From Scenedesmus sp. ARA3 (Eukaryota > Chlorophyta > Chlorophyceae > Sphaeropleales > Scenedesmaceae), in assembly GCA_004335835.1 (NCBI GenBank), contig RWJK01001663.1, positions 1 through 64,000 of the forward strand: a stretch of DNA of 64,000 nt, read 5' to 3'. The notes beneath the pieces were generated by a model, which was given only the letters and a program-made list of their open reading frames with translations, had not been told where the DNA came from and ran no database searches. Positions 7,172 to 50,156 of the stretch are shown here, piece after piece. Position numbers and translations under genes: made by a program. The number at the start of each line of letters is the position of its first letter. Position 1 is the stretch's first letter.

Positions 7172-10100
7172 TTAGATGCTGGGCCCAATGCCGTCAGTCA
7201 TCTGCGTGCGCACAGAGTCCAGTGTAGGCAGATCACCGACAAAGCGGTCCCAGGGTGGCGTGCCAGTGCCGCTGCTGCGCACGGTGCCATCCAGTTGCAC
7301 CTGCATCCACACGTTGCGCCGCGCCTTCTCCATTCCTGCGAACTCCTTCTGTGCCTCAACCCAGCCCTGCAAGCAGCACAGCAGCAGCAAAGTGTTGAGT
7401 GTACTGCGATACAGTACCATACAAAACAACACAATACACTGTAATATAGGCACAGTGGCGGCAGCAGTAGCAAGAGTGAAGCGTGCCTAAAGTGTGCTGC
7501 GCCTTCTCCATTCCTGCAAACTCCCTCTGCGCCTCAACGCAGCCCTGCAAGCAGCACAGCAGCCAGGTGTTTGTTTTGCCGCAAACCGACTGGCCGCGGC
7601 AGTAGCGAGCCTGCTTGCCCGCCTGCCTGCCCGCCTGCCTGCCTGCCTGCCTACGTGCCCGCCTGCCTGCCAGCCAACAAACACAACAGATGACAACAAC
7701 AGCAGCAGCAGCCGTCTCACCTCCCACTCCGCCACCGCTGACGGCTCCAGCCTCCACTTCCTGTCCTGGTCAGTCAGGCTGACCTCACTGTTGCCGATGC
7801 CACTGCCGCTAGGCCCGGGCTCCTGCAAGCCGCCTTGCTGCGCTGCTGCTGCGCTGCCTGCTGCTGCAAAGCCCTTGGCATCAGCCTGCTGCTGGCTCAT
7901 GGAGCGCTTGAGGGCCCGCAGCTTCTCCTCTGGGTCCTCTCTGCTGCTGTAAATGACCGGCACGACTGCAAGATGGCAGAAGTAAGGCAAAAACCAGCAG
8001 CAGAGCAGGCGTGTTGTTGACTCGAGAGGGAACATTGGGCCACATGGGGCTCATGGTGCGCTTGAGGGCCCGCAGCTTCTCCTCAGGGTCCTCTCTGCTG
8101 CTGTAGATGACCGGCGCGACGGCAAAAAAACACAGGAAGGGCGGTTGTAAGTTTGTAGGGATGCGTGAGGTTGGTTTGATGCAGCACCTGGGGCCCGCGG
8201 CTTCTGCTCTGATCCTCTCTGCGGCTGTAGATGACCGGCATGACTGCAGGATGGCGACAGGAATGCGAGAAAAGAGGTGCGCAAAGTGTTGGTTGATGGA
8301 AATGGATCTATGATGGATCTTTAAAGTAAAGGCCAGGAGGTTACAGCAACCGGCAACACAGCTTGCAGACCAGGTGTGGTGCTTGAGCCGACCGCCATCT
8401 AGTGCGCAGAGTGCCTGCATGATGAAGCCGGCAACAGCAGCTCACCCAATACATCGCGCGCCCGCAGCTGGTCGATCCGCTGCTCGCCGTCCTTGATGCA
8501 GCGCTCCACAGAGGTCAAATGTCAACAACATGAATAACATACTTCAAACAGCAACATCAGCTCACCCGACACGCCGCGCGCCCGCAGCTGGTCAATCCGC
8601 TGCTCGCCGTCCCTGATGCAGCGCTCCACAAATGACCTGTCGCCAGCAATGATCACGGGCCGCACTGCGCCCCTGAAGCGGATGAGCGGCAGCACGCGCT
8701 TGGGACCTAGCTGAATCTGCACAGCACAAACAGGCAAGCAGCAGCAGCGATGAGATGCAGGGGCAATGGAAGCACACGCTTAGCGCCCGGCTGGATCTGC
8801 AAAGCACAGCCTAGCTGTCCCAGGTTCAAACCAAACCTAATACCAACAGTAACAAAAAATAACACCCACCAGCAGGCGCCCCAGCTCCTCCTCCCTGCTT
8901 GTCACGCGCGTGTCCCGCTCCTTGGACTGCAGGTCCCTTAACACCAGGAATCCAAACACAGCAACAGCAGCGCCGTTGATGCCCAGGTTTGTCAGGGTCT
9001 CTGTCAAGTCTGGTGCGCCCTCGCCGCCTTTGAGGGCTGAGGCCAGCCTGCCTAGGATGACCAGCAGGCCAATGGCAGCGCCTAGGCCCAGGCCACCAAA
9101 CAGGATGATGCGCGCAAGGCGGAAGGGCGCCTGCAAGAGAAAGGGAAGGGCAGTGGCATGGATGCAGGTGGGTGGGTGCGCAGGATGGGTGTAACCGGCA
9201 AAGCATGAAGAATGAGCGTGTGACAAGCAGCTGGCCGAGTCGCTTCAGCTGTATGAGGCTCAAGTGCTGTGAGAAAGACACCTCATGCATGCACGCATGC
9301 TGTGTGCCCTGCGTGGCAGCCAAGGGTATTCTTGACAGTCTGTCTGCTGCTGCTGCTGCCGCCTGCCACACCAGGTGACGCTGCCACAGCCACCACACCT
9401 GCTACTTCAACCCAGTGTGCTTGCAGCTCCCCTTGAAGCTCAACTGCTTCCAACCCATCAACTACCTGCTGAGCGCTGCGCACATTAGGCCTGGTGTTGC
9501 ATACACAGGTCACTCATTTACACCCTGCAGAAGGTCACACCTTGGCCTCTGCGCGCAGTGTGACCTTCTGCTCCCGTGTGAGGCCTCCCTTGACGCTGCT
9601 CATCATGTCCAGCCACTCCCGAGTGTCGCGCAGCTCCCGCAGATCATCATCCTGCAAGCATTTAGGTGCAATGCACAGCAAAGAACTTCAGCAGACGTGC
9701 CTGTGATGTGGCAACACGCCAGCTCCCGCAGGTTGTCATCCTGCAAGCAAAACATGAGCCAAGGAGACGTGAGATACGCCCTGAGTCACCTGCAACACGG
9801 CCGTGATGTGGCGCCATGCATGGCAAGCCTTCCTGATGCTTTCCTGCAAGCATCATGTGCCAAGCCAAACATCAAACAGACGTAACTTTGGTGTGGTGTG
9901 GTTTTATGTATTCCTGGCGCGTGGAACATGTGGTGTGTAACAGACACTGGCCTGTGCGGCACATGCAACGGAAACACGTGCAAAGTGATATGGCCTGGGA
10001 TGGCCCGAGCCCTAGCCAGCCTGGTGCCTATGTCCTGCGCTGCTTAGCACATGTTTAACATCTCACAGCTGCTGCTTAGGAAGCTCTGCTATGCTGTGTA

Positions 10101-11514: not shown

Positions 11515-13550
11515 TTAGATGAGGGACAGATCCTCGCTGTTGGCGCGCCTGCCGCTCTTCAGCTTGTTGTAGAAGGTGTGCGTCTCCTCAATCACCTGCA
11601 GCAGCCGCAGCAGCAGCAGCAGGAGCAGCAGCAGCAGCGGCGGCGGCAGCGTGTCAGCGGCGGCGGTGGCTGCGGTCTAACAACGCAAGCCGCCCACATG
11701 CACATCGCCTGATGACCTGCCTGCAAACGCGCAAAGCAGCAGCAGCAGACAACCGCTGGCGGGGCAATTGGCAGAGCCCAGTTGACAGCTCCACATTGAG
11801 CCTGAAGCCATTTGCAAGCACTCCAACACGTTAAAACACGCAGCACACTGCAGCACAGCAGTTTCATATCGACTCCTCTCACCTTGAGTGTGAAGGCCTT
11901 GTCCATGCACTTGTTGTCGTAGCCGAAGGCGTTGGCGGGCTTGCCGTCCGAAATCTTGTAGTCGCGGAACCACTCCAGGATGGCAGTCAGCTGCCCGGGG
12001 AACTCCCTGCAGGAACAGACAGCACATGTTACTGTGTACATACAGAATGGGTTAGGGTTTGCAAGAGATGAGGTATTTGATTAAAGGATCTTGTAGGCGC
12101 GGAACCACTCCAGGATCGCATTCAGCTGACCGGGGAACTCCCTGCAGGAACAGACAGCACAAGTTATATTAAATGGGTCAAGGTTTGCGCGAGGTAAGAT
12201 CATTGGTTCAGGGATCTTGCAGTTGCGGAACCACTCCAGGATGGCAGTCAGCTGCCCGGGGAACTCCCTGCAGGGGGAGAACAGCACAAGTTATATAGAA
12301 TGGGCTAGGGTTTGCGCGAGGTAAGAGCATTTATTCAGGAATCTTGCAGTCACGGAACCACTACAGGATGGCAGTCAGCTGCCCGGGGAACTCCCTGCAG
12401 CGGCAGCACAGCACAGCACATGTGACTAGTTTTGGTGAGCGAGTTGAAAGTCCAACGCGTATCATAATGATGTTTGAGCTATGGATGAGGCGTGATCAGC
12501 ATGCTCAAACCACGCGACAGATCAAGGCGCACAGCGCCACGCCACCCACCTCTCCATGTCCTCCAGGCTGTTGACTGCTGCTGCCTTGGGGTCGGCGCTG
12601 TTGATGGCGATGACCTTCCAGTCCAGCTCGCCATCATCGATCATGGCGTACACGCCCAGCGGCTTCACGCGGTACACGCCGCCCATCTTGAGCTGCGCGG
12701 AGCCAATCTCCACCACGTCAACGGGGTCGTTGTCACCCTGCGCAGCAGCAGCAGCAATACAGCGGCCTTGCCATTGTCAGCGCCCCACATCCACGGAGTC
12801 GTTGTCACCCTGCAGATGTATTGCGTATCGATGCAACAACAACAGCAAGGTAAGGTGAAGCCACGAGGGTGTCCTCCACGGCGTCCACCGGGTAACATCT
12901 CCTTGCGCGGGGCATGCAGCACGCATTTAGTTATGTTGTTATCAAGTAGGGCAGTGTGCCAGCCCCACTTGAAAACAACATAACATAATGCATGCTTTTG
13001 ATGTGTGATGGCAACCCCTCAAACTTGCAGAACTCCGGTAGGAGATCACCACGAGTTGGTCTGACAGGATAGTGTGTGTGATTGAGATAATTTCATCGGG
13101 GAGAACGGCTGCTGAAATGAAACGCGAGGCATTCAACATGCAATCCGGCACTCCATTGCAACTACAGACATGCATCTAACATAGATATTGATAGAAACAC
13201 AGCAGCAGTGCGCTGCATAGCTGCAAAGACTAGCTCCCCTCAAACTTGCAGAACTCCGGTAGGAGATCACCATATGGTTGGTCTGACATTTGTGTGTGTG
13301 ATTGAGGTTTCTTTCACTGGGGGCTGTGAATCAACACCTGGCCGCACTGGTAACATTACCAAAGCAGTAACAAGCCGCTGACCGCCACACCACTACAGTA
13401 CCACACTCAACACCACATCATAGCCACGAAAGTGCACAGAGGCACACTGACCTGCAGCGGCGCTGCAGCAGCGGCGCTTTTCACAACACAGCCACAACCA
13501 CATAGTCAGCACACGCAACATCCAGGTTTGCAACATTCCCAAACCCATGT

Positions 13551-13586
<36 letters not shown>

Positions 13587-15504
13587 CTCACCGCCACGCC
13601 GCCCAGGTCCTCGTTCTTGTGGCTGGGGTCCTCCCAGGTCTGCGGCAGCAGGCCGTAGTTCCAGTTGATGTTGTAGGGGTAGAAGCGCAGCTTGCCCTTC
13701 TTGGTGTCCTGCTTGATGGGAGTGCTGGGCTCGTCCTGCGGTGCGTCAATGCAATAAATTGAGTCATTGGTGAGTGTGTCATGGCATTGATTCCTGGAGC
13801 ATGGCTTGCCCTTCTTGGTGTCCTGCTTGATGGGCAGGCTGGGCTCGTCCTGCAGCGCACATTACTGAGACAATGCATGTTGAATATGGTGTGTTGCATT
13901 GGCAAGTATTGATGGGTCGGTCGTGCTTGCCCTTCTTGGTGTCCTGCTTGATGGGCGTGCTGGGCTCGTAAATGCAAAAGATGAAGTCATTGGTGGATAT
14001 AACTGCGCATCGCAAAATGAGCATGGCTGGACATTCTTGATATCCTGTTTGATGGGCATGCCGGGCTCATCCTGCAGCGCATGAATCAGGACATCAATGT
14101 GCCTTTGCATGAAGAGAAAACGCAGGAAGGCTTGCCAATGGATTATGATAAATATAAGTGTCATTTATAACATCAAAACAATGTCAGTGTTACCAACATA
14201 TATTAAAACTTATCATCCTCACCGTGGCCACCTCCATCTTGGCGCTGGTCTCCTTGGGGATCTCGCAGATGAAGTGCAGCTCGTCCTCGCCAGCCCATAG
14301 AGGGATCTCGTGCCAGCAGGAGATGACCTTGTCTGCGGCGGCAGCAGCAGCAGCAGCAGCAGCAGCAGAGTTGTTCAGTTGCATGGCTTGCCAGCCCACA
14401 GCGGGATCTCGTGCCAGCAGGAGATGACCTTGTCTGTTGGTCAGCATGAACAGGTCAGCAGCAGGAGAGGAGTTTGAGGAGCGCGTAGGAGAATGCTAGA
14501 CTTGATGTGAGTTTGGGAGCGGCAGATAGAAGATACCACAGCTGCAGCACTGCTGTTTGCAATGGTTGCACAACAGCACAGCCTCCTCTGTTGCGATGAG
14601 GATGCATTGAGGGTCATCTGGGCATCTGCCACCCGCCTGATGCGAAACTGCAGCAGCTGCCTCTACTGTCCTAGCCTGCCGTTGCTGCTGCTGCAGCTCA
14701 CCATTCTGCTTGAAGGCAATGCGGTACTCCAAGGTCTCCTTGGGGCCCTGCAGCAGCACACCACATATATTGTTAGTCTGAAACTCATGTTCATCATGTT
14801 TCGTGCTGGCCTGCGCATAACAATCAGCCTAGCACTTGCTGACGCTGAGTACCGCTGCTAGTGGCACACGGCATCTGCGGCAGCAGTGGGTGATGTGAGC
14901 CTGGTGCTGCCACAGCTGCAGGCCAGCTGCAGCTGCCTCTGCTGGTACTAAGCGTTGATGATTGCAACTGAATGCATGCTAATGCGCGGTCAATGTGAGT
15001 GCTGGCGATTGCGTTCGTGGCTTGCCATGTGCAGCACACATGACATGCAGCATCATACAGCTACAGCTGCAGCAATGCAAGACTTGCATGCACCAGGAAC
15101 AATCCATCATATCACTGTCAAAGACCGATTGCAGCTGCGTGAACGACGATTCAGTGTTCAGCTGCTGCAGCTGAGGAAGGCTGTAGTGCTGCTGCTGTGG
15201 CACTCACGATCTCCTCGTTGCTGTAGTGAGCGACCTCAGGGGCCTTGGTGGCCACGGAGCGCACTGCCACTGCAGGCCTCACGGAGCGGCCGACAGCAGG
15301 GCAAGCAAGCTTGCGCACCTGCAGGTAGACAAACGAGAAGTGCAGTGAGCGGGATCTGCCACACGTGAGCTGCATGCACTGCCTACAGCCGATGGAAGCT
15401 CTTTAACAAACGTATGAAAATGCCACTGCATCAAGCTGCAGCAATTGACGCACCTGCTGGAAAGGTGCTGCACGCACAACGGCACCACGCAGTGCTGCTG
15501 CCAT
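11515..15504 (-). CDS. Soluble family I inorganic pyrophosphatase, plastid type
   Basis: The enzyme hydrolyses pyrophosphate to two phosphates and pulls biosynthetic reactions forward. Eight exons join in phase: 15504-15454, 15318-15208, 14747-14702, 14332-14223, 13735-13592, 12737-12550, 12006-11883 and 11595-11515, giving 284 residues. The family I signature GDNDPVDVVEIG sits at the start of exon 6 and carries the metal-binding Asp residues. Other family blocks are visible: the substrate-side KETSAKMEVAT, YNINWNYGLLPQTWEDP, LKMGGVYRVKPLGVYAMIDD and ELDWKVIAIN. The first two exons code for an Ala/Arg-rich transit peptide, so the protein probably acts in the chloroplast. Three exons are accompanied by copies of their acceptor edges in the upstream intron. 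It shares a 367-base divergent upstream region with PDX2. Confidence 0.93.
12087..12400 (-). repeat. Three extra copies of the pyrophosphatase exon 7 acceptor side
   Basis: The block coding REFPGQLTAILEWFR, with its CTGCAG acceptor, is repeated three times upstream of the true exon. Exon-like starts fall at 12141, 12267 and 12394, with the true one at 12006, so the period is about 126-135 bases. The intervening intron sequence is copied too. All four acceptors are intact. Confidence 0.92.
12775..12813 (-). repeat. Copy of the pyrophosphatase exon 6 acceptor edge
   Basis: This short segment matches the start of exon 6 (the GDND codons) and has its own CTGCAG acceptor, about 75 bases upstream of the true exon in gene orientation. 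Confidence 0.65.
13012..13306. repeat. Direct repeat pair within a pyrophosphatase intron
   Basis: About 70 bases, beginning CCCCTCAAACTTGCAGAACT, occur at about 13012-13088 and again at about 13236-13305 with small changes. They lie between exons 5 and 6 and do not match an exon of this gene. Confidence 0.8.
13801..14077 (-). repeat. Three extra copies of the pyrophosphatase exon 5 acceptor side
   Basis: The block coding DEPSTPIKQDTKKGK recurs at about 13803-13855, 13924-13975 and 14037-14077 upstream of the true exon start at 13735. The middle copy has lost its acceptor (GTAAATGC in place of GTCCTGCAG); the others keep CTGCAG. Confidence 0.9.
14386..14437 (-). repeat. Copy of the pyrophosphatase exon 4 acceptor side
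   Basis: The block coding DKVISCWHEIPLWAG is present a second time about 100 bases upstream of the true exon start at 14332. Its acceptor AG is kept. Confidence 0.85.
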
Positions 15505-18802: not shown

Positions 18803-20814
18803 ATGATGCTTGCAGGGCGTTGTCAGCGAAGCACCATGATCTATGCGTCTCGGAGCGTGGCTCCTTCAGCCATACGCGTGCTTGGGGTGGTCAGCAGCCG
18901 CAGGGTGAGCTGTTCCGGAGTAGCACAGCTTCGATACAGCACTAGGGCTGAATGCAGCTGCTCCTCTCGCTCAGAGCCATCACATGGAGTCATGGAATAC
19001 CTTACATGCTTAGTATGATTTTGCTCTTGGCCCTGCCCGTGATTCCTTGGCACAGTTGCAGTGCCAGTGCTGCAGCAGTAGCAGTGACACAGTGGAGCTA
19101 CATCAGCAGCTGTGTGCAGCCACACGCATGGACTTACGTCCTGCCTGAGCCATCTGCAACGCCATGTTACGCATGCAGGACGCTGTATGCCGCTACAGCA
19201 CAAGCCCCAACCCGCCACACTTCAACCACACCAGCTATGAGCTGTCAATAGAAGACAAGTTTGAAATCATGGAAGTTTGCCATAGGTATGGGGCTCAGGC
19301 TGCAGCAGACAGCACCAGAGCGATAGAATTTATAAAATTTAACATAGTAAGAAGCAGCAGCGACTCTGCAGCTGTGGCACAGCAACAGGGTGCGCATGCA
19401 TGCAGCAGCTGTTGCCATGGTGCAGGTGTGCTTCCAGAGGACAGCATGCTGCTTGATGCGTCATCAGCAGCTGAAGTGTGTTGGCTCATATGAGTGTTGT
19501 GTGCAGCTGCTCCCATTTTCACTGTCATCGCAATACTACGCATCTGTTCTCTGCAGAGTCCCTTTTGCGTGCATGCCCTCCTCTCAAAACGTGCATGCTA
19601 AGCATTGCTTTTCCACGCAACAGATGTAACATGCGTGTAACACCATGTTTGACCGCAGGTTTGACCAGGTGCTCAACCTGGGGCAGCAGGAGAGGCTGGG
19701 CTCTTTTTTTAGCAGCGATTCCGTTGTCAACATTGACATGAGCAATCCCAAAGTGCCCCTGAGGGCAGTCAAAGGCGTGCAGCCGATCCTGGAGTACTTT
19801 CAAAGTGTGAAACAGATGGCAGCAGGTGGGTGGGGCTGTGGCTGCGAGTTTTGGGTTTCCGGAGTTGAGCAGCAGCACAGTCAGAGGTACGCAGCCCGTC
19901 CTGGAATATCAATAGTGTGCGGCAGCAGGTGTGCGGGGTTGTGCGGGCGAGATTTGGGGCTTCCAGGTTTGGCAGCAGCGCAGTCAAAGGCGCGCAGCCA
20001 ATCCTGGAGTACTTCGACAGTGCGAAGAACCACATGGCGCAAGTGCTCTGCCGATTTACGTTGTCACTGCTGCAGGCAGCCGCCACCTCACATGCAACAT
20101 AGTGCTAGAGCCAGGTGGCCTACGGGCAGCCATAGTGACAGCGTATTGGCTACTCATGTGCTCTGCATTCGCAATTTATGTGTGCTGCGGCCAACCACCA
20201 CGTTACGTGCAACATAGTGGTCGAGCCAGATGGCCTCCGTGCAGCAAAGGTGACAGCATACCGGCTGCTCATGTGCTTTGCGTTTGCAATTTATGTGTGC
20301 TGCAGGCAACCGCCACCTCACATGCAACATAGAGGTCGAGCCAGATGGCTTGCGTGCAGCCAAAGTGACAGCGTACCGGCTGCTGCATAAGGCGCAGAAC
20401 CCTCCGGTGCTGCTGGCTGCTGGCATGATAGAGGACAAGCTGGTCAACGAGAACGGCGAGTGGAAGTTCGCGGTCCGGAACTTCATCATGTGAGTGTGAA
20501 GTCGGGTGTGAACTTGAGCAGTGGGATGGAAGGGGACCGTTTTGTGCAAGGGGGTTGGTTTTGAGCATGGGTGTGTCTGCTGCTGTGGGCAGTTGAACTT
20601 GTTGGCAGGGGGTGACGAGGATCTGCTGTCAGCTACGATGTCATGCGACTGTAGCATACCTACAGCATGCTTGTACGGAAGGGTAACCTGCATAATCTGA
20701 GTGCTTGCTGCAGGAGCTTCCAAAGTGGCTGATGCGCTGAGCTCGTGTTTCTGCTGCTGCTTCTTCTTACTTGGGGATGCCTGCAGGGACCCTCCAGCAC
20801 CAACCATGATGTAA
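18803..20814 (+). CDS. SnoaL/NTF2-like domain protein, probably organelle targeted
   Basis: Five exons join in phase: 18803-18904, 19179-19285, 19659-19825, 20306-20489 and a short terminal one at 20787-20814, giving 195 residues. Exon 1 codes an Arg/Ser-rich leader (MMLAGRCQRSTMIYASRS) that resembles a mitochondrial or plastid presequence. The body has the SnoaL-like order: EDKFEIMEVCHR, LGSFFSSDSVVNIDMSN, GVQPILEYFQS and NENGEWKFAVRNFIM. Members of this cone-shaped fold include small enzymes (isomerases, dehydratases, cyclases) and binding proteins, so the substrate cannot be told. Exons 3 and 4 have copies in intron 3. The last exon is the least certain part. Confidence 0.72.
19861..20305 (+). 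repeat. Tandem copies of exon 3 end and exon 4 start in intron 3 of the SnoaL-like gene
   Basis: The end of exon 3 (coding AVKGVQPILEYF) is copied at about 19865-19900 (degenerate) and 19970-20040 (close). The start of exon 4 with its acceptor is copied twice, at an exact 115-base period: junctions at 20075, 20190 and the true 20305. The first copy keeps CTGCAG; the second has CTGCGG. Confidence 0.9.
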
Positions 20815-21864: not shown

Positions 21865-21929
21865 TCACTCGGCGCTACCGCTGCTGCCACCGCTGCCGCC
21901 GTCAGCGCTGCTGTCGCCGCTGCCGCTGC

Positions 21930-21971
<42 letters not shown>

Positions 21972-22474: not shown

Positions 22475-24703
22475 TCTGGGCCTGACAGTGCTGCTGCCAG
22501 CTGCCGCCGCTTGTATGCCATGCAGTGGCTTGCAAGGTCCTGCTGCGCGCCTGCCCTGTCACGCACCTGACAGCAGCAGCGGCAGCAGCAGAGCAGGGAG
22601 TGCACTTGATGCGTCTGCATGTAGGTGTCATCCACCAACAGCCGTGGCTGGTCAGAACCTTGTCAACCATGGTCAAACCATGGTTAGGCAGCTTTGGCTC
22701 ACCATGAAGCACACACGCTGCCCCAGCCGCACAGCATCCCTGACCCCATGCACCCCAGCCTTCAAAGCAGCATCACTTGGCTGGTCAAACATGGTCAACC
22801 ACGGTAAAACATGGTCAAACAGGCAGCTTCCGCTCACCATGAAGCGCATGCGCGGCCCCACTCGCACAGCATCCCCCACCACCATGAAGCCAGCCTCAGG
22901 GCAGCATCACTTGGCTGGTCAGTTATGGTCAACCATGGTCAAACATGGTCAAACAGGCAGCTTGCGCTTACCATGAAGCGCATGCGCTGCCCCACCCGCA
23001 CAGCATCGCCCACCACCATGCACCCCAGCCCTCAATGCAGCATCACTTGGCTGGTCAACCATGGTCAACCATGGTCAACCATGGTCAAACCTGGTCAACT
23101 AGGCAGAATTGCACACTCACCATGAAGCGCACGCGCTGCCCCACGCGCACAGCGTCCCCCACCACCATGAAGCCTCACACTGCCGCAACAGCTACTGTCC
23201 ACCCCACCCGTTATGTTGTGGTGAAAAGAAGCATCGCACACTCACCATGAAGCGTACGCGCTGCCCCACCCGCACAGCATCGCCCACCACCATGAAGCCG
23301 GCCTCAGGGCAGCATCACCTGGCTGGTCAAACATGGTCAAACTTGGTCAAACACTTCCGCTCACCATGAAGCGCACGCGCTGCCCCACCCGCACAGCATC
23401 CCCCACCACCATGCACCCCAGCCCAGGTGCAGCATTGCTCAGCTGGTCAATCATGGTCAAACATGGTCAAATATGCAGAATCACACACTCACCATGAAGC
23501 GCACGCGCTGCCCCACCCGCACAGCATCGCCCACCACCATGAAGCCAGCCTTATCAATGGCCATGCCTCTTATCAGGAAGTCCCGAGCCTCAGGCTGCGG
23601 GCCGTCTGCTGCTCTCAGTGTCTCTGGGCAGAGCCCCAGCGCCATGTTGGCCAGCAGCTGCAGCAGCTCCTGTTTGCTGGTGGCGGCCTGCGACAGCAGG
23701 CGGACGGCAACGCAGTGAATGCGGTGGATGGTTCGATGACAATTTTACTAGGAAGAGGCAACGTGCTATGTTGGCAAGCAGCTGCAGCAGCTCATGCTTG
23801 CTGGTGGCAGTCTGCGACAGCAGCGCAGGCGACGGCAATGCAATGAATGTGGTGGACAGTTCGATGGCAATGTTACTAGCAAGAGGCAACGTGCTATGTT
23901 GGCCAGCAGCTGCAGCAGCTCCTGCTTGCTGGTGCCGGCCTGCGACAGCAGCGCAGGTGAATGACAACGCAACAAATGCGGTGCACGGTTCGATGACAAC
24001 ATTACTAGGAAGAGGCAACGTGCTATGTTGGCCAGCAGCTGTAGCAACTTCTGCTTGCTGGTGGCGGCCTACAGCGCAGGCGAATGCCACAACCGCCACG
24101 TATATGTGTCTACGTGCAGTGCATGGCATACCGCACGCAAAGCTGACGATCGCAAGAATGCTCCCTGTTTCCAGCTCAAGTTTCGGGCTCACCTGCTGCA
24201 CTTCCCGCTGCAGTGCCTCCACTGGGCTTACTTCCCTCCCTGCTGCATCCCGCAGGCCTAGTACCACGCTGCTGTGGCCCGCCAGCTTGTCTATGCTGTA
24301 CACGGCTTCGCTCAGCGGCCGGCAGCCCTGCGGCAGCAGCAGCGGCAGCAGCAGCAGCAAAGGTGTCAGCAGCAGCAGCAGCAGCAGCAGCGGCAGCGCC
24401 ACGCTGCTATGACCCGCCAGCTTGTCTATGCTGTACACGGCTTCGCCTAGCGGCCGGCAGCCCTGCGGTAGCAGTACAAGCAGGCAGGGTGCAAACATAT
24501 GAATGCCTGCGCCGTCTGAGGGCACCCCAACTTATCTTGCAGAGCTGCATAAGTTTCATAGGCAACAGGACAAACAAGATGAGGTTTCAGTGACATTGTA
24601 TGGTACTATGGCATCCAGACACTCACCTGCGCGACAAGCAGCTCCATCTCGACTGGACCCTGCAGTGACAGCACCACTGCACCCGTGCGCACCATGCCAC
24701 GTG

Positions 24704-24778: not shown

Positions 24779-26680
24779 GGCTCCAGGCAAACATGGCTCT
24801 TGCAGGACTCAGCTTGCCTGCACTGACAAGGCCGCCTGTGCAGCACACCCACACAGAAGAACAATGAATCACGTCACATGCAACGCCATCAGCAGCATGC
24901 AGCAGTAGGTGGGTAGCTGTCAGCGGAAAAAGCATGTACAGGCAAAACTGCTGCCATTGCTACACTTGCAGGAGTACCCACTGCAGGGTGAACACCCGAC
25001 CCGCTGCTTGCAGCATATTACCCTTCAGAGTCAGCAGCAGCTGCATCCGTCTCATCGTCGGCTTGCCTCACCGATCTTGTTTGCTGCTGGGAAGGCAAAT
25101 TCCAGGCCTGCTGTGAGCTCTGTCAGCTTTGTGAACTCTGGGTCAGCAAGCAAGCTGAAGCTGCTGGGGTGGGTGCTGTGCAGCTGCACACCCAGCCTGC
25201 TGCCATCCGCTGGACCTGCTGTTACTCATGCATGGCCAACGCCCCGCCGCTGTCCTACTAGCATTGCTACAGCTGCAACCACTGCTAAATTGCGCCGCTC
25301 GCCGCTGCGCGTAAGCACCCCAAGCCACCCATGCTCACCAATTTTGTTTGCTGCCGGAAAGGCAAAGTCCAGGCCAGCTGTAAGCTCTGTCAGCTTTGAG
25401 AACTCTGGGTCAGCAAGCAGGATGAAGCTGCTGGGATGGGTGCTCTGCAGCTGCACACCCAGCAGCTGCGCCCACTCCTGGGGAGGTGCATCTGCAGCAG
25501 CACGGGAAAGCGAATAACATGTTCAGGCGGTGCTGTGATGCTTGCTGTTTGCAGTGCGTTGGCGCCTGTGCACTGCCTGTTATGGGTTGTAGCCCTGCCC
25601 AGGGCTTGCGATTGTCGCATCACAAGTGGTGAGATGCTTTCCTGCCAGTTTTGCTGCAAGCGAATGCCGGCAACCACGCAAACCAACCACGTTCCTCACA
25701 AACGTGTGACCCTCCAGCTGCGCTCACTGAAGCCCGCATGACGGCTGCTGCATGACCTAGCCTCGGCTCAGCACGCAGGCAGTAACCATACAAAGAACAG
25801 CTGCAGGATGCACACAACTCTGCGCTACGCTGTTGCCCAACCCTTCAACTTGTAGCTACACACCTCCGTCCGGCAGCTGCTGCGCTGTGACATGTGTGAT
25901 GCGCACGTTTACGCCCGGCAGTGACCCGAGTGTGATGCTGACTGAGGGCGCATGCTCAATTTCTTCTGGGCCTTCTGCTGTGCTGCCAATCACTCCATAG
26001 CCCTGCAGGCGAGCAGGCATGCAGGTGGTTATAAACTAGCCAGGAGCGGTGGCGTACTCGTTCAGCAAGCCGCTACACAGGTTGGCTGGTTGCAGGTGCA
26101 GACGCTGAGGCACCCAAGCTTTGACACAGAGGTGACGTAACAGGTTCAACATCAAGCCAACTCTATACCTGCCGGCAGCAGCTAAGAAACAGGCATGCAG
26201 AGTCCTGGAAACAGTCCTGTTGCTGGGCTGACCCAGCAGTGCGCTTTCTCTTGCAGGACACTGCAACACGGCATAGAGTGAAATGGCCTGCTTGGTCAAA
26301 CCCACCGTTGACCCGAAGATATGCTTCAACGATGGCACCCTCTGCCGCAGCAGCTGCACCAGCTGATCATACTCTGCCACATAAGCAGATGACAGGAAGA
26401 CAATTGCCAGCTCCGGTTCCCAGCCAGCTGCTTTGCTGCTCAGCGCTCCAGCGACTGCTTCCTCTATAGCCAGGTCAAGATTGATGCGTCGGGAGACGTT
26501 GCTGCTCCATTGGAAAGAGCCAGCGGCAGCAGCACTCGGAACAGCAGTGGAGGACTGCTGCTGCTGCGAAGCTCGCACTACATGCGGCCTGAGCCGTCTT
26601 GCTGAATGCAATAGGCTTTTGGGGGTGAACTGTGAGTGTATGGTTCCGAATGTGACTTTTCCTTGCAGCGAGGGCAGCAT
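21865..26680 (-). CDS. FIST-domain protein (FIST N and C), with plastid-type leader
   Basis: Eight exons join in phase: 26680-26306, 26002-25864, 25491-25339, 24835-24627, 24327-24193, 23687-23493, 22566-22296 and 22049-21865, giving 553 residues. FIST domains are thought to sense small ligands. The N-terminal FIST part shows INLDLAIEEAVAGALS, PELAIVFLSSAYVAEYDQLV, GYGVIGSTAEG and DFAFPAANKIG. The C-terminal part shows GCRPLSEAVYSIDKLAGHSS, FLIRGMAIDKAGFMVVGDAV, MLLFSCNGRGMNLYDEP, SYDSRTL, PVPCGGFMCN and ELGSVGGTTHLHGFT. The first 40 residues, rich in Arg, Ser and Gln, look like a transit peptide. Gln and Ser tracts interrupt exons 4, 7 and 8. Four exons are duplicated in part in the introns. 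I chose ATG 26680 because the upstream frame has only GTG. Confidence 0.85.
22698..23553 (-). repeat. Seven-copy array of the FIST exon 6 donor side
   Basis: The block coding GFMVVGDAVRVGQRVRFM, with its donor, occurs seven times: starts at 22698, 22833, 22967, 23116, 23241, 23360 and the true 23488. The spacing is 119-149 bases. Between copies run TGGTCAAACATGGTCAACCA-type short repeats. All copies keep a GT donor (GTGAG, once GTAAG). The copies differ from one another by scattered substitutions, and several replace the FMV codons with GVH. Confidence 0.95.
23763..24085 (-). repeat. Three copies of the FIST exon 6 acceptor side
   Basis: The block coding AATSKQELLQLLANMA recurs at about 23763-23831, 23883-23959 and 24021-24075, upstream of the true exon start at 23687. 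At least the first three members of the set keep a CGCAG or CTGCG-type junction. Confidence 0.9.
24385..24465 (-). repeat. Upstream copy of the FIST exon 5 start
   Basis: This block codes GCRPLGEAVYSIDKLAGHSS and has a CCGCAG acceptor, about 135 bases upstream of the version used in the model (start 24327), which differs by one residue. The copy runs on into CTG-repeat intron sequence, so only the downstream one is complete. Confidence 0.85.
25065..25205 (-). repeat. Downstream copy of the FIST exon 3 end
   Basis: The block coding ADPEFTKLTELTAGLEFAFP and its GTGAGG donor repeat the true exon 3 end at 25339-25440. This offers a second, in-phase donor. Confidence 0.85.
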
Positions 26681-28595: not shown

Positions 28596-28644
<49 letters not shown>

Positions 28645-34732: not shown

Positions 34733-35716
34733 CACGGCATCACGGCATCGACGTCCTGCAAGAGCTTCCTCACCTGGCGCATCGATATCGTGGGGTGGGG
34801 GTGGCAGCTCCAGCAGTGGGACGAGAGGCTGTTCAACTGTTGTGGCTGCTTCACTCAACGTAGCCTCTTTTACAGTGCGGTACAACGCACATACACCGAG
34901 GCTATGAACAAGTCTTGCGAACACGCAACGGCTGTCGGCAGGCCGAGCCCAATGAGGCGCCAAGGCATGTGCACGCGACGGTTACATCGGACGTTCTGCG
35001 CCCAATTGAGTGTACGCGGTAGCTCGTTGAACGGGTGACTAAAATCTACACGAAGCCTAGGGATAATAGGAAACGCTGTGTGAACAGTGGGGCATGGCGC
35101 ACGCAACGGCTGACTAGGGTTTTGATCCAGCAGCACAGCCTTCATCCGCTCGACATTGGCCGCAGATGGGAAGATACATCGACAGGTTGACTGTTGAATA
35201 TGCGCATGGATGCTCTGTGCAGTTGCAGCCATGGCCTGCAGATACCACAGTGAATGTACCCTCACCCAGACAGCCACTCAAGCAGTCAGTTTACACCCGG
35301 AAGTACCGTCGATTCATCCCTTGACACCCTTACAAGTCTCCACCACCCAGAGACCATCCATAAAACAGCACGATCATGTATGCTGCTTCACTGCTTCCCT
35401 GCCGGCCCATGCCTCATGCCAGCAGGCCTGTGATTTGCCCTGCCCTGGCAGATTTTTAAGAGAAAATTGGCTGGATGACCCGAAGCTGCAGGGCAAGACT
35501 GTTGCAGCAGCCCTGTCAGTAGCTGTACACTTTGCCGCATGATTGCGGCCAGCTGCTGCGGCCCTGCCCCGTTAGTTGCTGTGCCAGCTGCTAATGCTAC
35601 TGCAGCGTCAGCTTGATGTCCACCCACAAGTCGGCGCTACGTGCAGTGCTCGACTGCAGCCACCTTCTCGTAGGTGTTAGACTTAAGGTCGTTGCTGCGG
35701 CACATCTGCAATGCAG
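34733..35716. other. Region between the Cys-rich gene and the TFIIA-gamma stop
   Basis: The DNA has a balanced composition without the CAG bias. I see no exon I can support, and no RNA gene. Confidence 0.4.
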
Positions 35717-37695
35717 CTACTGCGGCGCCAGCTTGATGTCCACGCACACGATCTTGGCCTTGTCGCACGTCACTTCCGGGGCCTTCTTGACGGACCCGGT
35801 GCCGCTGGCATTCAGTTTGAAAGCCACGTCAGACAGCGTGAACTGCCACACCTGCAGCGTGAAAAGACAACACAAACACAGTGTGTCACAGTCAGCAGGG
35901 CACACCAAATCACGTGGGCTGACACGTCAGACTGCCACACCTGCAGCTTGTAACCAATGTAACAACTGTGTGAGTGTGACATGCAATGCAACACGGGGTG
36001 GTCAGCGGCGTTCAGTTTGAAAGCCACGTCAGACAGCGTGAACTGCCACACCTGCAGCGTGAAAAGACAACACAAACACAGTGTGTCACAGTCAGCAGGG
36101 CACACCAAACACGTGGGCTGACACGTCAGACTGCCACACCTGCAGCATGTAACCAATGTAACAACTGTGTTAGCGTGGCATGTCATGTGTGACACAGGGT
36201 GGCCAGCGGCATTTAGCTTGCAGGCCACGTCAGACAGCGTGAACTGCCACACCTGCAGCGAGACAGGGAGTGTGATAACAAGTGTGACAAGTGGTGACAC
36301 AGATAGTGAGAGTCATGATAACGGTGTGACATTCAACTTGAAGGCCACGTCAGACAGCGTGAACTGCCACACCTGCAGCGAGACAGGTAATGTGGTATCA
36401 AGTGTGACAAGTGGTGTGACACGTGGTGTGACTCATGATAACGGTGTGACATTCAACTTGAAGGCCACATCAGACAGCGTGAACTGCCACACCTGCAGCG
36501 ACACGTACATGTTGTGAAGTAACCAGAAGGTGTTTGCTGGGTGATACATGAGGTGTTTTTAACACTTAAGGTTGCATGCAAGCCATACAGGGAGTGAAGC
36601 ATTATGTTTGGATTTATGATTTTCCAAAGTGTGCTTCCTGCAACTCTTTCAGAGGCTTAGCCAAATGCAGTTTAACGTATAATATCTATAACATAAGCTA
36701 CATCAGGTGCTGGTGCTGGGCGATGTTGCTGCTCACGTTGTCGTAGTATTTGTAGGTACCTGCACCCCCATGCCACTGCCTGTGGCTGCGACAGCACCAC
36801 TGCTTGCGGCAGCTCTGCATTGAACAAGCAATCAACATCATACATCACGTCTGCTCACGTTGTCGTAGTACTTGTAGGTGTCCAGGTTGCCCTTCACCTC
36901 ACTCTTTGCGGGGATCTCATTCTTGAGCGCACTCAGGATGGACTGCGAGCAAAAACATGAAATTACATCAGGCGGCATTTACAACAATTTGGCAGGTGAG
37001 GAACAGGCTGCGTTGTGGTTCTAGGCAGCTGCTGAAGGATCACACTGCACAGCAGCATGTCGAGTAATAGCTCAATACTCCCAAAGTGGCTGCTGCAGAG
37101 CTGATGAGCCGCTGCACGCTGCGAACACATGCAACGCTGGCATGCTCGCATGACACAGCATGCAGCCTCTCTGTTGACACGCACTGGATTTGTGGGAACA
37201 CACAGGCTCAGCAGTGCAGCTGTCATCTGCATTGTCCTGCATGCTGCTGCCGCTACAATATCAACGCTGCACAATCATGCCAAGATGAATGCATACTACA
37301 GTGTGGGCTGCGAGTTGCGCAGCTGCATGTCATGGTTACCTGATCGAGCTGAGGCCAAGTGAAAGGCAACACGGACAGCCGTGATTGCAGCACAGCAGCA
37401 GGGCAGACAGCATGTCAGCAGAAGGTGTTGCCGGCGCACGGACGTTTAACACATCTTCATTTTCACAAGTGGCAGAAGGCACGGCTCAGAGTTCCGCTTA
37501 GGTAGCAAGCGCAGCATTGCAGTGGAGCACAGGATGTAAGGCACGTGGTAGCACCAAAGTTGTTCCTGTGTGTTTCACCTGGTCCAGGGTGGCTACTGCC
37601 AACTCCTCTGGCACCTTGCCGTCAGCAACCAGCTCCTGCAGGACCTCATACAGCGCCTGGGCCAACTGCGTGTTTGAATACAGCTGGGCTGCCAT
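35717..37695 (-). CDS. TOA2: Transcription initiation factor IIA, gamma (small) subunit
   Basis: TFIIA stabilises TBP on promoter DNA for RNA polymerase II. Three exons join in phase: 37695-37579, 36942-36859 and 35851-35717, giving 111 residues, close to the family length of about 105-120. The N-terminal helical part is AQLYSNTQLAQALYEVLQEL, then VPEELAVATLDQSI. The beta-barrel part has KGNLDTYKYYDN, VWQFTLSDVAFKL and CDKAKIVCVDIK, matching the conserved YRFCDNVW and DKVKIVAC blocks. The intron before exon 3 contains four further copies of the acceptor and exon start, so the choice of the last acceptor (35852) is made because only that copy runs into the complete C-terminus. Confidence 0.93.
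36010..36500 (-). repeat. Four extra copies of the TFIIA-gamma exon 3 acceptor side
   Basis: The block coding VWQFTLSDVA[FC]KLN, preceded by CTGCAG, is repeated at junctions 36052, 36253, 36373 and 36493, next to the true 35852. The spacings are 200, 201, 120 and 120 bases. Shorter acceptor-only echoes lie near 35940 and 36140. All four full copies keep the AG. Confidence 0.95.
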
Positions 37696-40596: not shown

Positions 40597-40665
40597 TGCG
40601 CCTGATGAGGCATGCGGGCGCAGCAAGCTCAGGACGGGGAGGATGCCTACTTTGATGCAGAGTAG
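40597..40665 (+). repeat. Copy of the CCDC97 C-terminal coding end after the stop
   Basis: About 65 bases repeat the last codons of CCDC97 (AQQAQDGEDAYFDAE and a TAG) roughly 125 bases past the true stop, in a frame shifted relative to the sequence just before it. Confidence 0.85.
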
Positions 40666-41268
40666 CTGCTGTTGTATCCTGTGGGGAACTGAGGCGCTGG
40701 TGTCTGCAATGTCTGACTGCGATTGGACATTACTCGGGAGCCGCCTACTGGCTCCTGTGCAGAGTTTTCACATCTGTGTCTAGTCAACAGATGGTGTGTG
40801 AAGAGTGCATGTGGCTTGACGCAGCGCTTGTTGTAACACATGCAGCGGATCCTTTACAAACCTCTACCTGTAGTAAAATGGGGAGTCGGTGACTCCGTAT
40901 CCCGGACGATCGTTTCCTTGCTTGTGTGACAGCCAGTGGCTTGACAGCCAGTCCTACAGTTTCCTGGGCCCAGGATAGCTGTGCAACAGCAGATGAAGCC
41001 CCCCGGCCACCACCCACCCCTCCCACCATCTTCGAGGCGCACTTTTTCCTTTGCTCACATTTAGTTTTACTTTCTTTCTGACTTCCTACTGGGAAACACC
41101 AGCGCGCAACCTCTGGCAACGTCAAAACCCACGCATACAAACACCAGCGACCATTGAACGTGACGAAAAAGCAGAACCAGCGGTCGCTATTATCGAAATT
41201 GCTTTAAAACAACATTGATATACAACTAATGTAGATTCGATGGCCTGCTTCGACGTATCCAGCGACTG

Positions 41269-43240: not shown

Positions 43241-43243
43241 TGC

Positions 43244-46176: not shown

Positions 46177-49053
46177 CTAGTGTTCTGCACTACCTTCTCG
46201 CCAAAAACAGCCTGCGTATACTCACTCTGCTGCTGCTGCTGCTGCCACAGTGCACCAGATGAGCGCACCTGCAGCTGCGTTACTCCTGCCGGCTGCTGCT
46301 GCTGCTGCTGCTGCACTTGCAGGAACGGCACCAGCAGGCTCGCCTGCATTGGCACCTGCTGCTGCTGCTGGTGCTGCTGCAGCAGCGCTAAGTGCTGGGG
46401 AGGTGCTGCGAGATTCAGCTGCTGCACTACCTGCAGAGACTGCAGCCGCAGCTGCTGCGGCCCACCAAAACCTATCTGCTGCTGCTGCTGCTGCTGTTGC
46501 AGCAGCAGCTGCAGCAGCTTCTGCCGTTGGCTGTGCTCGGCCACCTGCTGCTGCTGCAGCTGCTGCTTCAGCTGCGCCTGCAGCAGTGCCAGCTGCCGCT
46601 GCTGCTGCACCGCCTGCTGCTGCGCCGCACTCGCAGGCCGGCTGCAGGCTTCGCTGGCTTTTGCACATGCAATCTGCAGATCTAACAAGCAGGTCTGCCG
46701 CAGCTGAAGCAGCTCAGGGCCGCAGGCAGTTAGGCAGTACAGTACTGCCTCCAAATGGTCCATCACTTTGGCTGGGGTGTACTGCAGCGCTGTGTCCCTG
46801 CCTGCTTCTGAAAGCCGTGCATGCAGCGAGGAGTCTGTGAGCACTGCAAGCAGGTGCTGCGCGAGGCCTGATGATAGTGCAGCAGCAGCAGCAGCAGCAG
46901 CAGCGGGTGTGTCAGCACTGCCAGAAAGAGTTGCGCAAGGCCTGATGATGACACAGCAACAGAGCAGCACCAAATGCAAGAACAAACACATCTCAGCACC
47001 AGAAGCCCGCATCCATCTGTGCGCACCTGTTGCGTCGTCTGCTGCTGCCACGAGGCAGTTCTCGCCATGCCTGCAGAAGGTGCGGATGCCCAGGCAGTCT
47101 GTGGTGACTACCGGCACGCCACACGCCATAGCCTCGAGCACTGGCATGCCCCACGCCTCATACCTGCAGCAGAGCAGAAAGCACACAGCATAATGCACAC
47201 AAATAAGCGCACAGGCAACAGCAACGCAGTCCTAGTGACAACCGGCAGGCCGCCTCATAACTGCAGCAGCACACATCATCATGTACAGTTCAATACGGGG
47301 GCATGCAGGAGGCAGTCTGTGGTGACCACCAGCAGGCCGCACGCCATGGCCTTAACTTGCTATCTACTTCGAATCTCCTAAATATATCTCCAGCAGCCCT
47401 CACCTGCTGGAGAACATGAACACGTCATTGCCGCGGTACAGTGCCGGCAGCTCNGCCTGACTNGGGCTCAGCACTGTCTCCAGCTCATAAATCTACCAAT
47501 TTTCGACAGTGCAATCTCAAACGCAACAAANGAGGATGTGTGGGCTATTNNTAAGTCCAGCTGCAGAACACGACACCCCACATGTTACACCAACCTACAT
47601 CCTTTTCANCTCAAAGTCCTGGAACAGCCATTTCAGCAGCCCTCACCTGCTGGAGAACATGAACACGTCATTGCCCCGGTACAGTGCCGGCAGCTCTGCC
47701 TGACTCGGGCTCAGCACTGTCTCCAGCTCAAAGTCCACCAGAGGCAAATTCGGCACTGTCGCTGCTGTTGGCAGCACCTGGCACACCCAGCGCACGCTGA
47801 TCGGCAGCATTGCTGATACAGCAGCAAGCGCAGCAATAGCTGTCGGGAAGCCTTTCAGAGGTAGTGCAGGGTTGCCTACGATGAGAATGCGCTTCTTGCC
47901 GCTGCTGCTGCTGCCCGGGCTGCAGGCATCTGCAGCAGCTGCTGCTGCTGGTTCGGCAGCAGCAGCAGCAGCTGCATCGACCATGTCTGCAGCTATGGAT
48001 GGCTGCTGCTGCTGCTGCTCAGCTAGACTGCTAGCTCCTGCTATGACAGGGCTAAGAGCTTGTTGCAGTGCAGTTGCAGCACTGCCGCTGGGCTGCTGCT
48101 GCTGCTGCTGCTGCGCCTCTGGCACTGCAGCAAACTGAGCTTGCCCTGCTGCTGCTGCTATTGGCCCGTCAGATGCACCACATTGCTGCTCAACCTTGCC
48201 CTGCTGCTGCTGCTGCTGCTGTCCTGCAAGCCCCTCATCCTCCCCTGCAGGCGCCCCTCCTGCTACTGCTGCTGCTGCTGCTGCTGCATCTGACATCAGC
48301 GCTACTGCTGTGCCAGCCGCCTCACCAGACCCCGCCACTTCAGCTGCTGCTGCTGCTGCTGCTGCTGTCACCTCTCCCAGCTCCTCAATAACACACCCTG
48401 ATCCGGACCCTGCTGCTGCTGCTGCTGCTGCATCCTTGGCCGCCTCTGCTGCTGCCTTGATTGCTGCTGCAGGCTGCCAGGGTCCCGGTGTGAAGCGCTC
48501 GCAATCGATGCCATTTGGGATGAGCAACGAGCCGCGGCCAAACTCCTGCTGCAGGATGTCCTGCACTGCGCTGCTGACTGAGGCCAGCACACAGGGCAGG
48601 TGCATGACCAGGTGGAACAGCTGATCCTGCTTCAAGTAGTTCTGCGCCACCTGTTGGACAAACGACAATGAAAGATATGCATACAGTCAGCAGCAGCATT
48701 GCGCATGACCAGGTGGAACAGCTGCTCCTGCTTCAGGTAGTTCTGCGCCACCTGTTGCACAGGGCAAACATGTACTCATGCATTTATGAAGTCAGCAGCA
48801 GCAGTGTGCATGACCAGGTGGAAGAGCTGGTCCTGCTTCAGGTAGTTCTGCGCCACCTGTTCGGCAATGCAACAATGCACACATAATGCAGGCAGTTTCA
48901 CCTCAGCTAGCAGTGATTGTGGCGGGCTTGGCTGCTGTGCTGGTACCTTGAACACAGCCCAGGACGATCAGGGCGACAGCAATGTTCAAACTGTGCAAGC
49001 GAATGCTGTTTGTAAGCGTCCGATGTACACTGCAGACGCAGTAGAGAGTTCGT

Positions 49054-49091
<38 letters not shown>

Positions 49092-50156
49092 CCACCTGCA
49101 GTCGGATGGGGTCCCCGAAGATCCACTCGTGGCCCTGCTCCCAGTACAGCACAGGCGCGTGCACACCAGCCAGCAGCTCAGCCACCTGCAGCAGCAGCAG
49201 CAGCAGCAGCGGCAGCAGCTGGGGGGCTTTAGCATTATATGCAGCTGGATGGTATAACGGTGTGGGCACACAATGTGCAATGCAATTGATGCACTGTACA
49301 ACGCTGGCGACTGCACGCAGCGTAACCTTGCCAGGCTGGCTTGGCGATAGCATCAGGCATGTGCAAGCGACTGCTCACATCAGCACAACAATGTTCAACA
49401 TCAATGCAAGCTGACTGTTGCCCATCAGGTTCGTTGTTGGCGTAGCGCGCATCAGCTGGTACGGCGCTGCAAGTAGCACAACCCTAGCTAGGTCAGCAGC
49501 ACACATCCACCCCAAAAGCCAGCCTGGAAGCTGCAGGACCTGTGCATGTGCAGCCTCACAGCTGCGACACAATGTATGGAATGTATGGAAAGTATGGAAT
49601 GTATGAAATGTATGGAGTGTATGGAATTGTATCTCACCTGGTGAAAGATGCCCACAACAACCACATCAATGTCCTGCACTGGGTGCACGTCGCTGAGGCG
49701 CTGGTGTAGGTTGCACACAACGTCTGCATCTGCCTCGACAGTCGTCCAGGGTGGCATGGCGCGCTTGGCAGTGTCGGAGCGGTGCACTGCTATGGTGTAA
49801 TGGCCGCGCTGGCGCAGCAAGCGAACATGTTCCACCAGGCACTTCATGCCGCCGGTGATGTTGTGGTGGGGCAGCATGTAGCATACCCGTAGTGGTCTGT
49901 TTGGCGAGATCAGCTTCTTCTGGAAGAGCTGGTAGTAGCGAGCGACCAGGGTGTCGACCTGGTCTGCCACTCTACTGCCCTTCTGCCAGGCTGTTGGGCA
50001 GCCGCATCCAGCACAGTGCAGAGTGTGTCCAAAGGGCAAGATACTGCCCTTTCCATTGCTGCAGCTGGCAGGAGCAGTGATGCTGCTGCCAAGGCAAACT
50101 GCTTGCCTCTGCTCTCCTATCGCTGCTGGCAGCAGCGTCTGCGTACTGGCCGTCAT
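45213..50156 (-). CDS. GT4-type glycosyltransferase with long Gln-rich tail
   Basis: Five exons join in phase: 50156-49638, 49185-49096, 48650-47647, 47163-47027 and 46867-45213, giving 1134 residues. The first half is a family 4 (GT-B fold) retaining glycosyltransferase: PLRVCYMLPHHNITGGMKCL, VVVVGIFHQ, VLYWEQGHEWIFGDP, LLIPNGIDCERF, KRILIVGNPALPLKGF, YRGNDVFMFSSR and the EAWGMPVLEAMACG block, which contains the E-x7-E motif that contacts the nucleotide sugar. About 200 Ala/Gly/Gln-rich residues are inserted between the two lobes, and about 500 Gln-rich residues (units like FSQQQPLALSQQQLAF) follow the domain. The sugar and acceptor are unknown. The tail is likely disordered. Several exon edges are duplicated in the introns, one next to ambiguous bases. 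Confidence 0.85.
46918..47345 (-). repeat. Copies of exon 5 acceptor and exon 4 interior in the glycosyltransferase introns
   Basis: At about 46918-46950 the start of exon 5 (GLAQ codons with a CATCAG acceptor) is repeated about 60 bases upstream of the true one. At about 47225-47250 and 47308-47350 part of exon 4 (coding AMACG.PVVTT) is repeated, upstream of the true exon start at 47163. Confidence 0.75.
47393..47510 (-). repeat. Copy of the exon 3 donor side, with ambiguous bases
   Basis: This block repeats the end of exon 3 (coding ETVLSPSQAELPALYRGNDV) and its donor about 245 bases downstream of the true exon end at 47647. N calls at 47454 and 47463, and again at 47531, 47550, 47551 and 47609, fall in or beside it. 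They suggest the assembly could not separate the two copies cleanly. Confidence 0.85.
48695..48862 (-). repeat. Two extra copies of the exon 3 acceptor side
   Basis: The block coding VAQNYLKQDQLFHLVM, with its CAG acceptor, is repeated with exon-like starts at 48751 and 48856, next to the true 48650. The period is about 101-105 bases. Each keeps AG. Confidence 0.92.
49568..49622. repeat. GGAATGTAT minisatellite in intron 1 of the glycosyltransferase
   Basis: Six nine-to-ten-base units of the form TGTATGGAA with changes. Confidence 0.9.

Follow-up and report, generated by a model that had tools for sequence, protein, structure and literature searches.

How do copies of exon edges, splice sites included, come to lie inside the introns next to those same exons? 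The question is raised by a 64,000-nt stretch of DNA from the green alga Scenedesmus sp. ARA3 (assembly GCA_004335835.1, 1,567 contigs, 87.3 Mb; contig RWJK01001663.1, positions 1 to 64,000 of the forward strand), hereafter the window, in which a preliminary description had listed ten genes carrying such copies. The copies were found to be local, direct wherever orientation was tested and restricted largely to exon edges, and largely neutral local duplication of DNA in two stages has, in our judgement, about an even chance of explaining them. Given that the spliced pyrophosphatase protein of the window is 99% identical (aligned columns) to four Tetradesmus obliquus proteins, the sequenced alga is T. 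obliquus or a close sister.

The preliminary description had proposed that introns be compared with their flanking exons against controls. Exon edges of 110 nt were aligned to their own intron, to introns of other genes and to the reverse complement of their own intron, using a score of ≥ 40 for side counts and ≥ 45 for copy counts. Own-intron copies were present at 19 of the 106 exon sides of 53 curated introns, compared to 0 of 4,936 pairings of the same queries with introns of other genes, and none of the 106 sides matched the reverse complement. At the higher threshold, 37 copies were counted at 19 sides in 16 of the 53 introns. The same test was applied to NDUFS2, a nuclear gene on another contig (L017:5053-9327, contig C1100) that was picked because its locus is rich in duplications; own-intron copies were found at 7 of 14 sides, with 0 of 742 null pairings and 0 of 14 inverted matches. 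Four of its seven introns hold one to three border-reaching copies per side, and a fifth intron holds a copy from the exon interior. The spliced protein aligns over 361 residues without gaps to a solved 49-kDa subunit structure in the absence of the copies, which are therefore extra. NDUFS2 is probably the cleanest gene for mechanism testing.

The 53 introns were curated in 11 blocks, equal to 10 genes if both 'RimM-like' blocks form one gene. Exon borders were obtained with a home-made gene finder and by reading, and the window exons were then set by hand because the first self-trained finder over-predicted tiny exons and the second still took some copies for exons. Five of the 53 listed introns lack GT-AG and reflect mis-set borders, and the borders of a gene at 53-61 kb are approximate since its join is not open. 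Pfam matches were obtained for LPA1 (DUF3493), PDX2 (SNO), SnoaL, FIST, CCDC97 and a group-1 glycosyl transferase (GT4); Pfam also supported the C-terminal domain of TFIIA-gamma, with the N-terminal domain under the cut-off, and the submitted part of the 'RimM-like' gene had no match. Self-comparisons were run with blastn on the plus strand, and inverted copies were tested for the 106 window sides and 14 NDUFS2 sides. The wider sample consisted of 20 other stretches (192 kb) plus the window, 256 kb in total.

By blastn self-comparison, the local direct duplications of the window formed 34 clusters. The copied unit had been said always to cover an exon border, which was true in the main: 27 clusters overlapped an exon (three of these at a stop codon), while two were intron-only, one of them a short-period minisatellite, and five fell outside curated exons and introns. 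One intron-only duplication with no exon edge, assigned to neither strand, pairs 13015-13086 with 13236-13306 (89% over 73 nt, offset 221). Simulated random placement of 60-120-nt segments put only 22-50% at borders. In the three coding-end clusters, similarity stops approximately 1, 7 and 17 nt past the stop codon in TFIIA-gamma, CCDC97 and LPA1, respectively.

The internal anatomy of the copies was examined by taking the outermost copy at each side as showing the size of the first duplication (one of the 19 was excluded, as no exon fell within its best alignment, and two not reaching the border were scored with an intron part of 0). The exon part had a median of 66 nt versus 12.5 nt for the intron part, and was the longer in 18 of 18 (p = 7.6e-6). 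When duplications were placed uniformly in simulations with drift of the same kind, intron made up a share of 0.35-0.49 (p from 5e-7 to 3e-4). All six border-reaching outermost copies in NDUFS2 were likewise exon-heavy (exon/intron nt: 95/8, 79/17, 55/4, 57/14, 39/5, 41/7), as were, by eye, unanchored blastn pairs. Offsets were 100-170 nt in 62 of the 88 local duplications of the 256 kb. The spacers between inner copies could be aligned in 22 of 33 pairs (scores 30-88), whereas the outer flanks (n = 19) scored 2.6-23.8 against the spacer adjoining the true exon, near the null (null medians 8.5 and 10.7). Plain tandem duplication predicts an integral ratio of length to offset; the ratio was half-integral (near n+0.5) in 49 of 65 cases (p = 2.5e-5) and near-integral in just 8, giving a layout of copy-(spacer-copy)n. 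Of the earlier proposal that border segments are locally duplicated in tandem, locality and direct orientation stood wherever tested, and plain tandem copying did not, as the outer flank is mostly without a spacer match. Periods divided by three left remainders of 0, 1 and 2 in 15, 9 and 13 cases, showing no frame preference. T-content upstream was 0.291 for outermost acceptor copies, 0.387 and 0.325 for true acceptors with and without copies, and 0.236 for random intron, a comparison that decides nothing. Two other origins were considered and rejected: that each spacer is a whole small intron whose insertion brought a long target duplication with it (by eye, AG is absent before most donor-type copies), and that old introns are saturated (most inner spacers can still be aligned).

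The copies drift roughly neutrally. In the window, 33 of 37 copies reach the border, and AG or GT is kept in 28 of these 33, or 29 after one mis-set border was corrected; in NDUFS2 it is kept in 12 of 12 border-reaching copies. The earlier observation that many copies keep AG or GT was thus borne out, at about the rate that drift at 6.5% divergence predicts. Across 36 events of other loci (32 of 68 clusters were left out, both or neither copy being called exon), mismatches at the three codon positions numbered 81, 84 and 138 of ~ 780 sites each (0.104/0.107/0.177), and 179 of 303 differences were nonsynonymous. This is the pattern that an unconstrained, drifting copy would show next to an exon whose changes fall mainly at third positions.

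In the process that we favor, replication or the repair of a break would, at the first stage, involve either a direct template switch over a short range or slipped re-synthesis, an enzymatic route that we infer. The product would be a copy of ~ 80 nt, mostly exon edge plus a few intron nucleotides, placed 40-150 nt away in the adjoining intron and sometimes beyond the stop codon. As suggested by the anatomy, the resulting pair would serve as direct repeats, between which slippage or unequal exchange would add copy-plus-spacer units of ~ 125 nt. With splicing still at the gene's own border, the protein would be unchanged. The copies would lengthen the intron and drift, and some may remain competent as alternative 3' or 5' splice sites.

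Several observations weigh against this two-stage process. The search for exon and intron parts was anchored in the exon and favors exon-heavy copies, and three outermost copies hold 37-50 nt of intron. Pooled outer-flank scores were slightly above the null (p = 7e-4), perhaps just through a few shared intron nucleotides; one of these flanks, at the FIST donor, aligns with a different inner spacer (score 32.9), and scores of < 30 were obtained for 11 of the 33 inner spacer pairs. The third-position excess is stronger in the window (41/35/100, two of the 100 being Ns and array copies not being independent), and copies diverge less from one another than spacers do (0.080 vs 0.154), both of which hint at possible constraint or conversion on the exon copies. 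No enzyme or motif was identified. Finally, neutrality alone does not predict the exon-edge bias, and the reason for the choice of exon edges lies outside the account that the two stages give.

This bias looks mutational or positively selected, because selection should, by our reasoning, rather disfavor extra splice sites. If the coding-end copies at stop codons are general, they would point to a boundary at the level of DNA (composition, nucleosome) rather than to splicing, but two of the three are just 74-79% identical, a level at which the flank may be hidden by drift alone. A bolder version, which we hold only tentatively, is that a mutational process in Tetradesmus recognises boundaries between coding and non-coding DNA, stop codons as well as splice sites, and recopies roughly half a nucleosome of exon edge into the non-coding flank, feeding both intron growth and the supply of alternative splice sites. 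Recognition might proceed through base composition, nucleosome position or transcription, as a proposal, and the half-nucleosome length is a guess from the ~ 80-nt copies.

Ordinary random tandem duplication of ~ 125 nt, in which events within exons are lost to selection and those at exon edges are seen more often since one copy drifts, is the strongest of the alternatives, yet an unlikely one. It accounts for direct orientation, locality and a dominant period, the 8 near-integral ratios speak for it, and exonic or border duplications have precedents in the available parts of reports on potato and Drosophila (PMC4974935, PMC2891723). Against this, the border-straddling share that it predicts (0.22-0.50) is exceeded by the 27 of 29 clusters in curated genes that overlap an exon. 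Simulations recovered intron-only duplicates in 93-100% of runs up to 0.1 drift per copy, though in just 37% at 0.15. In most cases, too, the outer flank is something other than a diverged spacer, and random tandem duplication is disfavoured in the window.

Comparison with T. obliquus bears on the remaining alternatives. The window's pyrophosphatase, spliced without the copies, gives a complete protein, and extra peptides occur at its borders in three T. obliquus UniRef proteins and in one from a 4.8-Mb contig (a doubled ten-residue piece). Translation of window positions 13736-13849 reproduces 38 of 38 residues of the insert in T. obliquus protein P0001, and that of 12162-12266 reproduces 35 of 35 residues of a second extra peptide; 12006-12140 matches 44 of 45 residues of a third, with a stop codon in the window there. 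Two of the three copies at 12088..12394 thus occur as peptides in T. obliquus proteins. The extra peptides are predicted products of alternative 3' splice sites or of a cassette exon, and the pyrophosphatase copies therefore exist outside the ARA3 assembly and, judging by these matches, probably predate the split of the strains. Presumably, the UTEX 393 draft (PMC5255914) is the source of the UniRef entries and a long-read assembly that of the 4.8-Mb contig. None of the window's TFIIA-gamma copies occurs in the corresponding T. obliquus protein (P0133), and no T. obliquus protein was among the 12 matches listed for FIST. Gene models in this alga may hold duplicated peptides that are intron copies.

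The suggestion that the copies are candidate alternative splice sites gained ground from the three used in predicted T. obliquus pyrophosphatases. A stronger version, that copies are retained for function as alternative splice sites, poison exons or splicing enhancers, is doubtful to a greater degree than random tandem duplication. The three pyrophosphatase predictions, the retention of AG or GT (29 of 33 and 12 of 12) and the lower divergence of copies than of spacers are in its favor, but retention is close to the expectation at 6.5% divergence, the periods are without frame preference, 179 of 303 differences are nonsynonymous, and stop codons occur inside copies.

Somewhat less probable again is break repair capturing nearby DNA through synthesis-dependent strand annealing, as described for primates in the accessible part of PMC2671141, where local inserts of 50 to 619 bp have unrelated flanks and splice sites can be copied along. 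The same text gives one example of an inverted insert and counts, among 824 donors, 4 that are partial exon/intron and 278 that are intronic, whereas in the alga an inverted copy was found in the own intron at none of the 106 window sides and none of the 14 NDUFS2 sides.

Exchange between diverged homologous chromosomes, with exon edges derived from a haplotype whose introns can no longer be aligned, would give a sharp loss of similarity at exon borders and stop codons, and a few copies do differ at third positions only (0/0/6 in stretch L003; 0/0/5 in GT4, two of these Ns). This origin was rejected on the codon-position mismatches at other loci, where, over all events, mismatches at first and at second positions are more than half as frequent as those at third positions; additionally, in the one gene compared, the T. 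obliquus intron copies match the window at 38 of 38, 35 of 35 and 44 of 45 residues, and we regard such an exchange as very improbable. An assembly artefact, against which the divergence of the copies had been cited from the outset, is the least credible explanation: six Ns lie in the window, some inside one GT4 copy, and gaps occur at the L006 and L017 arrays, but the copies show divergence and order and leave the reading frame intact, and some are encoded in other T. obliquus records too, one (the doubled ten-residue piece) on the 4.8-Mb contig. The six Ns, at 47450-47610, stand in and beside a GT4 exon-edge copy, and the gaps lie near position 2128 of L017, at an array edge, and inside a short-period array of L006; arrays therefore seem to break assembly.

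The copies are spread unevenly over genes. Eight of the ten genes first listed passed the own-intron alignment test (LPA1, pyrophosphatase, PDX2, SnoaL-like, FIST, 'RimM-like', TFIIA-gamma and GT4), PDX2 weakly with a best score of 46. CCDC97 failed it, with blastn alone giving a copy after the stop and a weak one at a donor; the array beside the Cys-rich gene, a candidate exon-edge case, is present at 42847-43275. The statement that most genes carry copies was too strong. By blastn, no such local duplication was found between 49 and 64 kb, a region that includes a gene with ~ 12 introns used as an internal negative (53825..60786, minus strand; 0 of 24 sides at score 40), or in two MYND-type genes at the left window end, where Tandem Repeats Finder lists short-period repeats. 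In the 256 kb, 88 local duplications of any kind were counted, some of them coding repeats; at least one (coding repeats included) was present in 16 of the 20 other stretches, that of L006 being a microsatellite beside a gap, and none in the other 4. The MYND-type genes (so called by eye) are two similar tandem genes at 1-1250 and 4930-6395. Between them lies a further copy of the last LPA1 exon (1781-1843, 94% over 63 nt); larger duplications therefore occur here too.

Of the genes with copies, LPA1, pyrophosphatase, FIST, 'RimM-like', TFIIA-gamma and GT4 lie on the minus strand. In LPA1, the acceptor and start of the last exon (7172-7366) are copied at 7493..7544 (88% over 52 nt, AG kept), and the start of exon 7721-7965 at 8048-8119 and 8179-8243 (94% and 86%; AG lost in the first and kept in the second). 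The end of exon 8566-8716 is copied with its donor at 8431..8510 (91% over 80 nt at an offset of 120, with 65 nt of exon and 15 nt of intron), and the coding end beyond the stop at 6900..7008 (74% over 109 nt). The pyrophosphatase gene holds three copies of the start of exon 11883-12006 at 12088-12141, 12214-12267 and 12340-12394 (93-96%, AG kept in all three). The start of its exon 13592-13735 recurs at 13804-13849 (AG kept), 13925-13969 (AG lost) and, more weakly, 14026-14086, and that of exon 14223-14332 at 14387..14433 (94% over 47 nt, AG kept).

In FIST, the end of exon 23493-23687 is copied six times on the donor side, at 22703..23423 (86-97%, GT kept in all six), and its start three times on the acceptor side, at 23765..24068 (89-94%, AG kept in all three). 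The spacers of the FIST array (22645-23551) contain a 10-bp minisatellite (TGGTCAAACA) that is itself variable in number. The start of exon 24193-24327 is copied at 24399..24465 (94% over 67 nt, AG in the alignment), and the last 123 nt of exon 25339-25491, as a donor copy, at 25074..25196 (91%; codon-position mismatches 2/1/8). In the 'RimM-like' gene, two exon ends each have two donor copies, that of exon 28649-28905 at 28370..28612 (87-90%, GT kept in one) and that of exon 30825-30909 at 30610..30744 (both 27/27 nt identical, GT kept). In TFIIA-gamma, the start of exon 35713-35851 recurs in four acceptor copies at 36007..36492 (89-98%, AG kept in all four); the gene also has a donor copy of the end of exon 36859-36942 at 36729..36757 (28/29 nt by blastn, under the alignment-test threshold) and a coding-end copy at 35596..35628 (91% over 33 nt, offset 120). 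At 36943-37578, the exon join of this gene reads a single LDQ, compared to LDQLDQ in T. obliquus and transcript-derived homologues; the join may lack a 9-nt exon, the strains may differ here, or the border may be mis-set. In GT4, the end of exon 47647-48650 is copied, as a donor copy with Ns inside, at 47404..47498 (95%; codon-position mismatches 0/0/5, two being Ns) and its start twice at 48703..48856 (95-96%, AG kept in both).

On the plus strand, PDX2 has a weak donor copy at 16615-16653 (a blastn cluster) and an acceptor-side copy that stops short of the border at 16669-16721 (77%, score 46). SnoaL-like has donor-side copies of the end of exon 19659-19825 at 19878..20026 (73% and 86%), and the start of its exon 20306-20489 recurs in two acceptor copies at 20076..20269 (85-87%, period 115, AG kept in one). 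The coding end of CCDC97 is copied beyond the stop at 40598..40672 (79% over 76 nt, offset 127).

The idea that border-segment duplication goes with longer introns agreed with the measured lengths, the median being 485 nt for introns with copies versus 287 nt for those without (p = 2.8e-4). With the 53-61 kb gene left out, the copy-free median was 360 nt (p = 0.007 vs 485). The further idea, that copies perhaps create introns, found no case in support: no examined copy was seen to have made its intron. In the AGGT model of intron birth, the duplicated border should read AG|GT, the unit thereby supplying both new splice sites, and the exon should start with GT; this was the case at 5 of 14 copy-bearing acceptor borders (one of 15 was excluded because its copy is inner exon only; the PDX2 copy likewise does not reach its border).

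Among known systems, introners are dispersed families that mass-produce intron sequence. The copies described here share this mass production but are local. A genome search with window positions 7100-27000 (19.9 kb; 39 of 866 candidates scored) gave 101 listed matches, nearly all CAG-, CTG- or GCCT-type tracts, and the exception among the matches listed was one LPA1 copy in the window itself. CAG/CTG-type trinucleotide tracts are frequent in window exons and introns and confound similarity searches.

Closer precedents involve single local events. According to the available part of PMC4974935, a duplication in a potato RdRp gene spans an intron end and an exon start and makes a new intron. This and the Drosophila report (PMC2891723, also available in part) resemble our case in that splice signals are supplied by a direct, local duplication that lies at an exon border or spans it; the unit there has a full intron end and makes a new intron, whereas the algal copies are intron-poor, lie inside introns, form arrays and occur in many genes. 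The vertebrate and primate repair captures in the accessible part of PMC2671141 (at least 50 bp, local, sometimes of exon edges, with duplicated exons free of coding constraint) share local capture and occasional exon-edge copying, but include an inverted insert and only 4 of 824 exon-edge donors, while in the alga no inverted copy was found at the sides tested, exon edges dominate and a period is preferred. Human segmental duplications (PMC2812944) also show tandem repeats that alter gene structure, which, by the headings of that paper, concern the expansion of minisatellites in paralogues of recent origin.

No description of exon-edge arrays in Sphaeropleales was found in the open-licence literature. 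The genome paper PMC5255914 does not mention them, nor does the accessible text of PMC8780407, and the term 'intron' is absent from the accessible text of PMC7590803, PMC12571836 and PMC7955037. For S. acutus phytochelatin synthase, intron retention and exon skipping are described in the available part of PMC12899622, in which 'duplicat' and 'repeat' do not occur. Duplications of exons and exon borders are thus known, and we regard a genome-wide, exon-edge-restricted and arrayed form as new, none being reported in the open-licence papers searched.

Intron growth and the origin of spare splice sites are usually studied from single cases. If the density of 88 per 256 kb holds, this genome would contain tens of thousands of local duplications, with a presumably large share at exon edges. 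The graded divergence of the copies would then make the rates, directions and splicing consequences of such duplications directly measurable in this alga.

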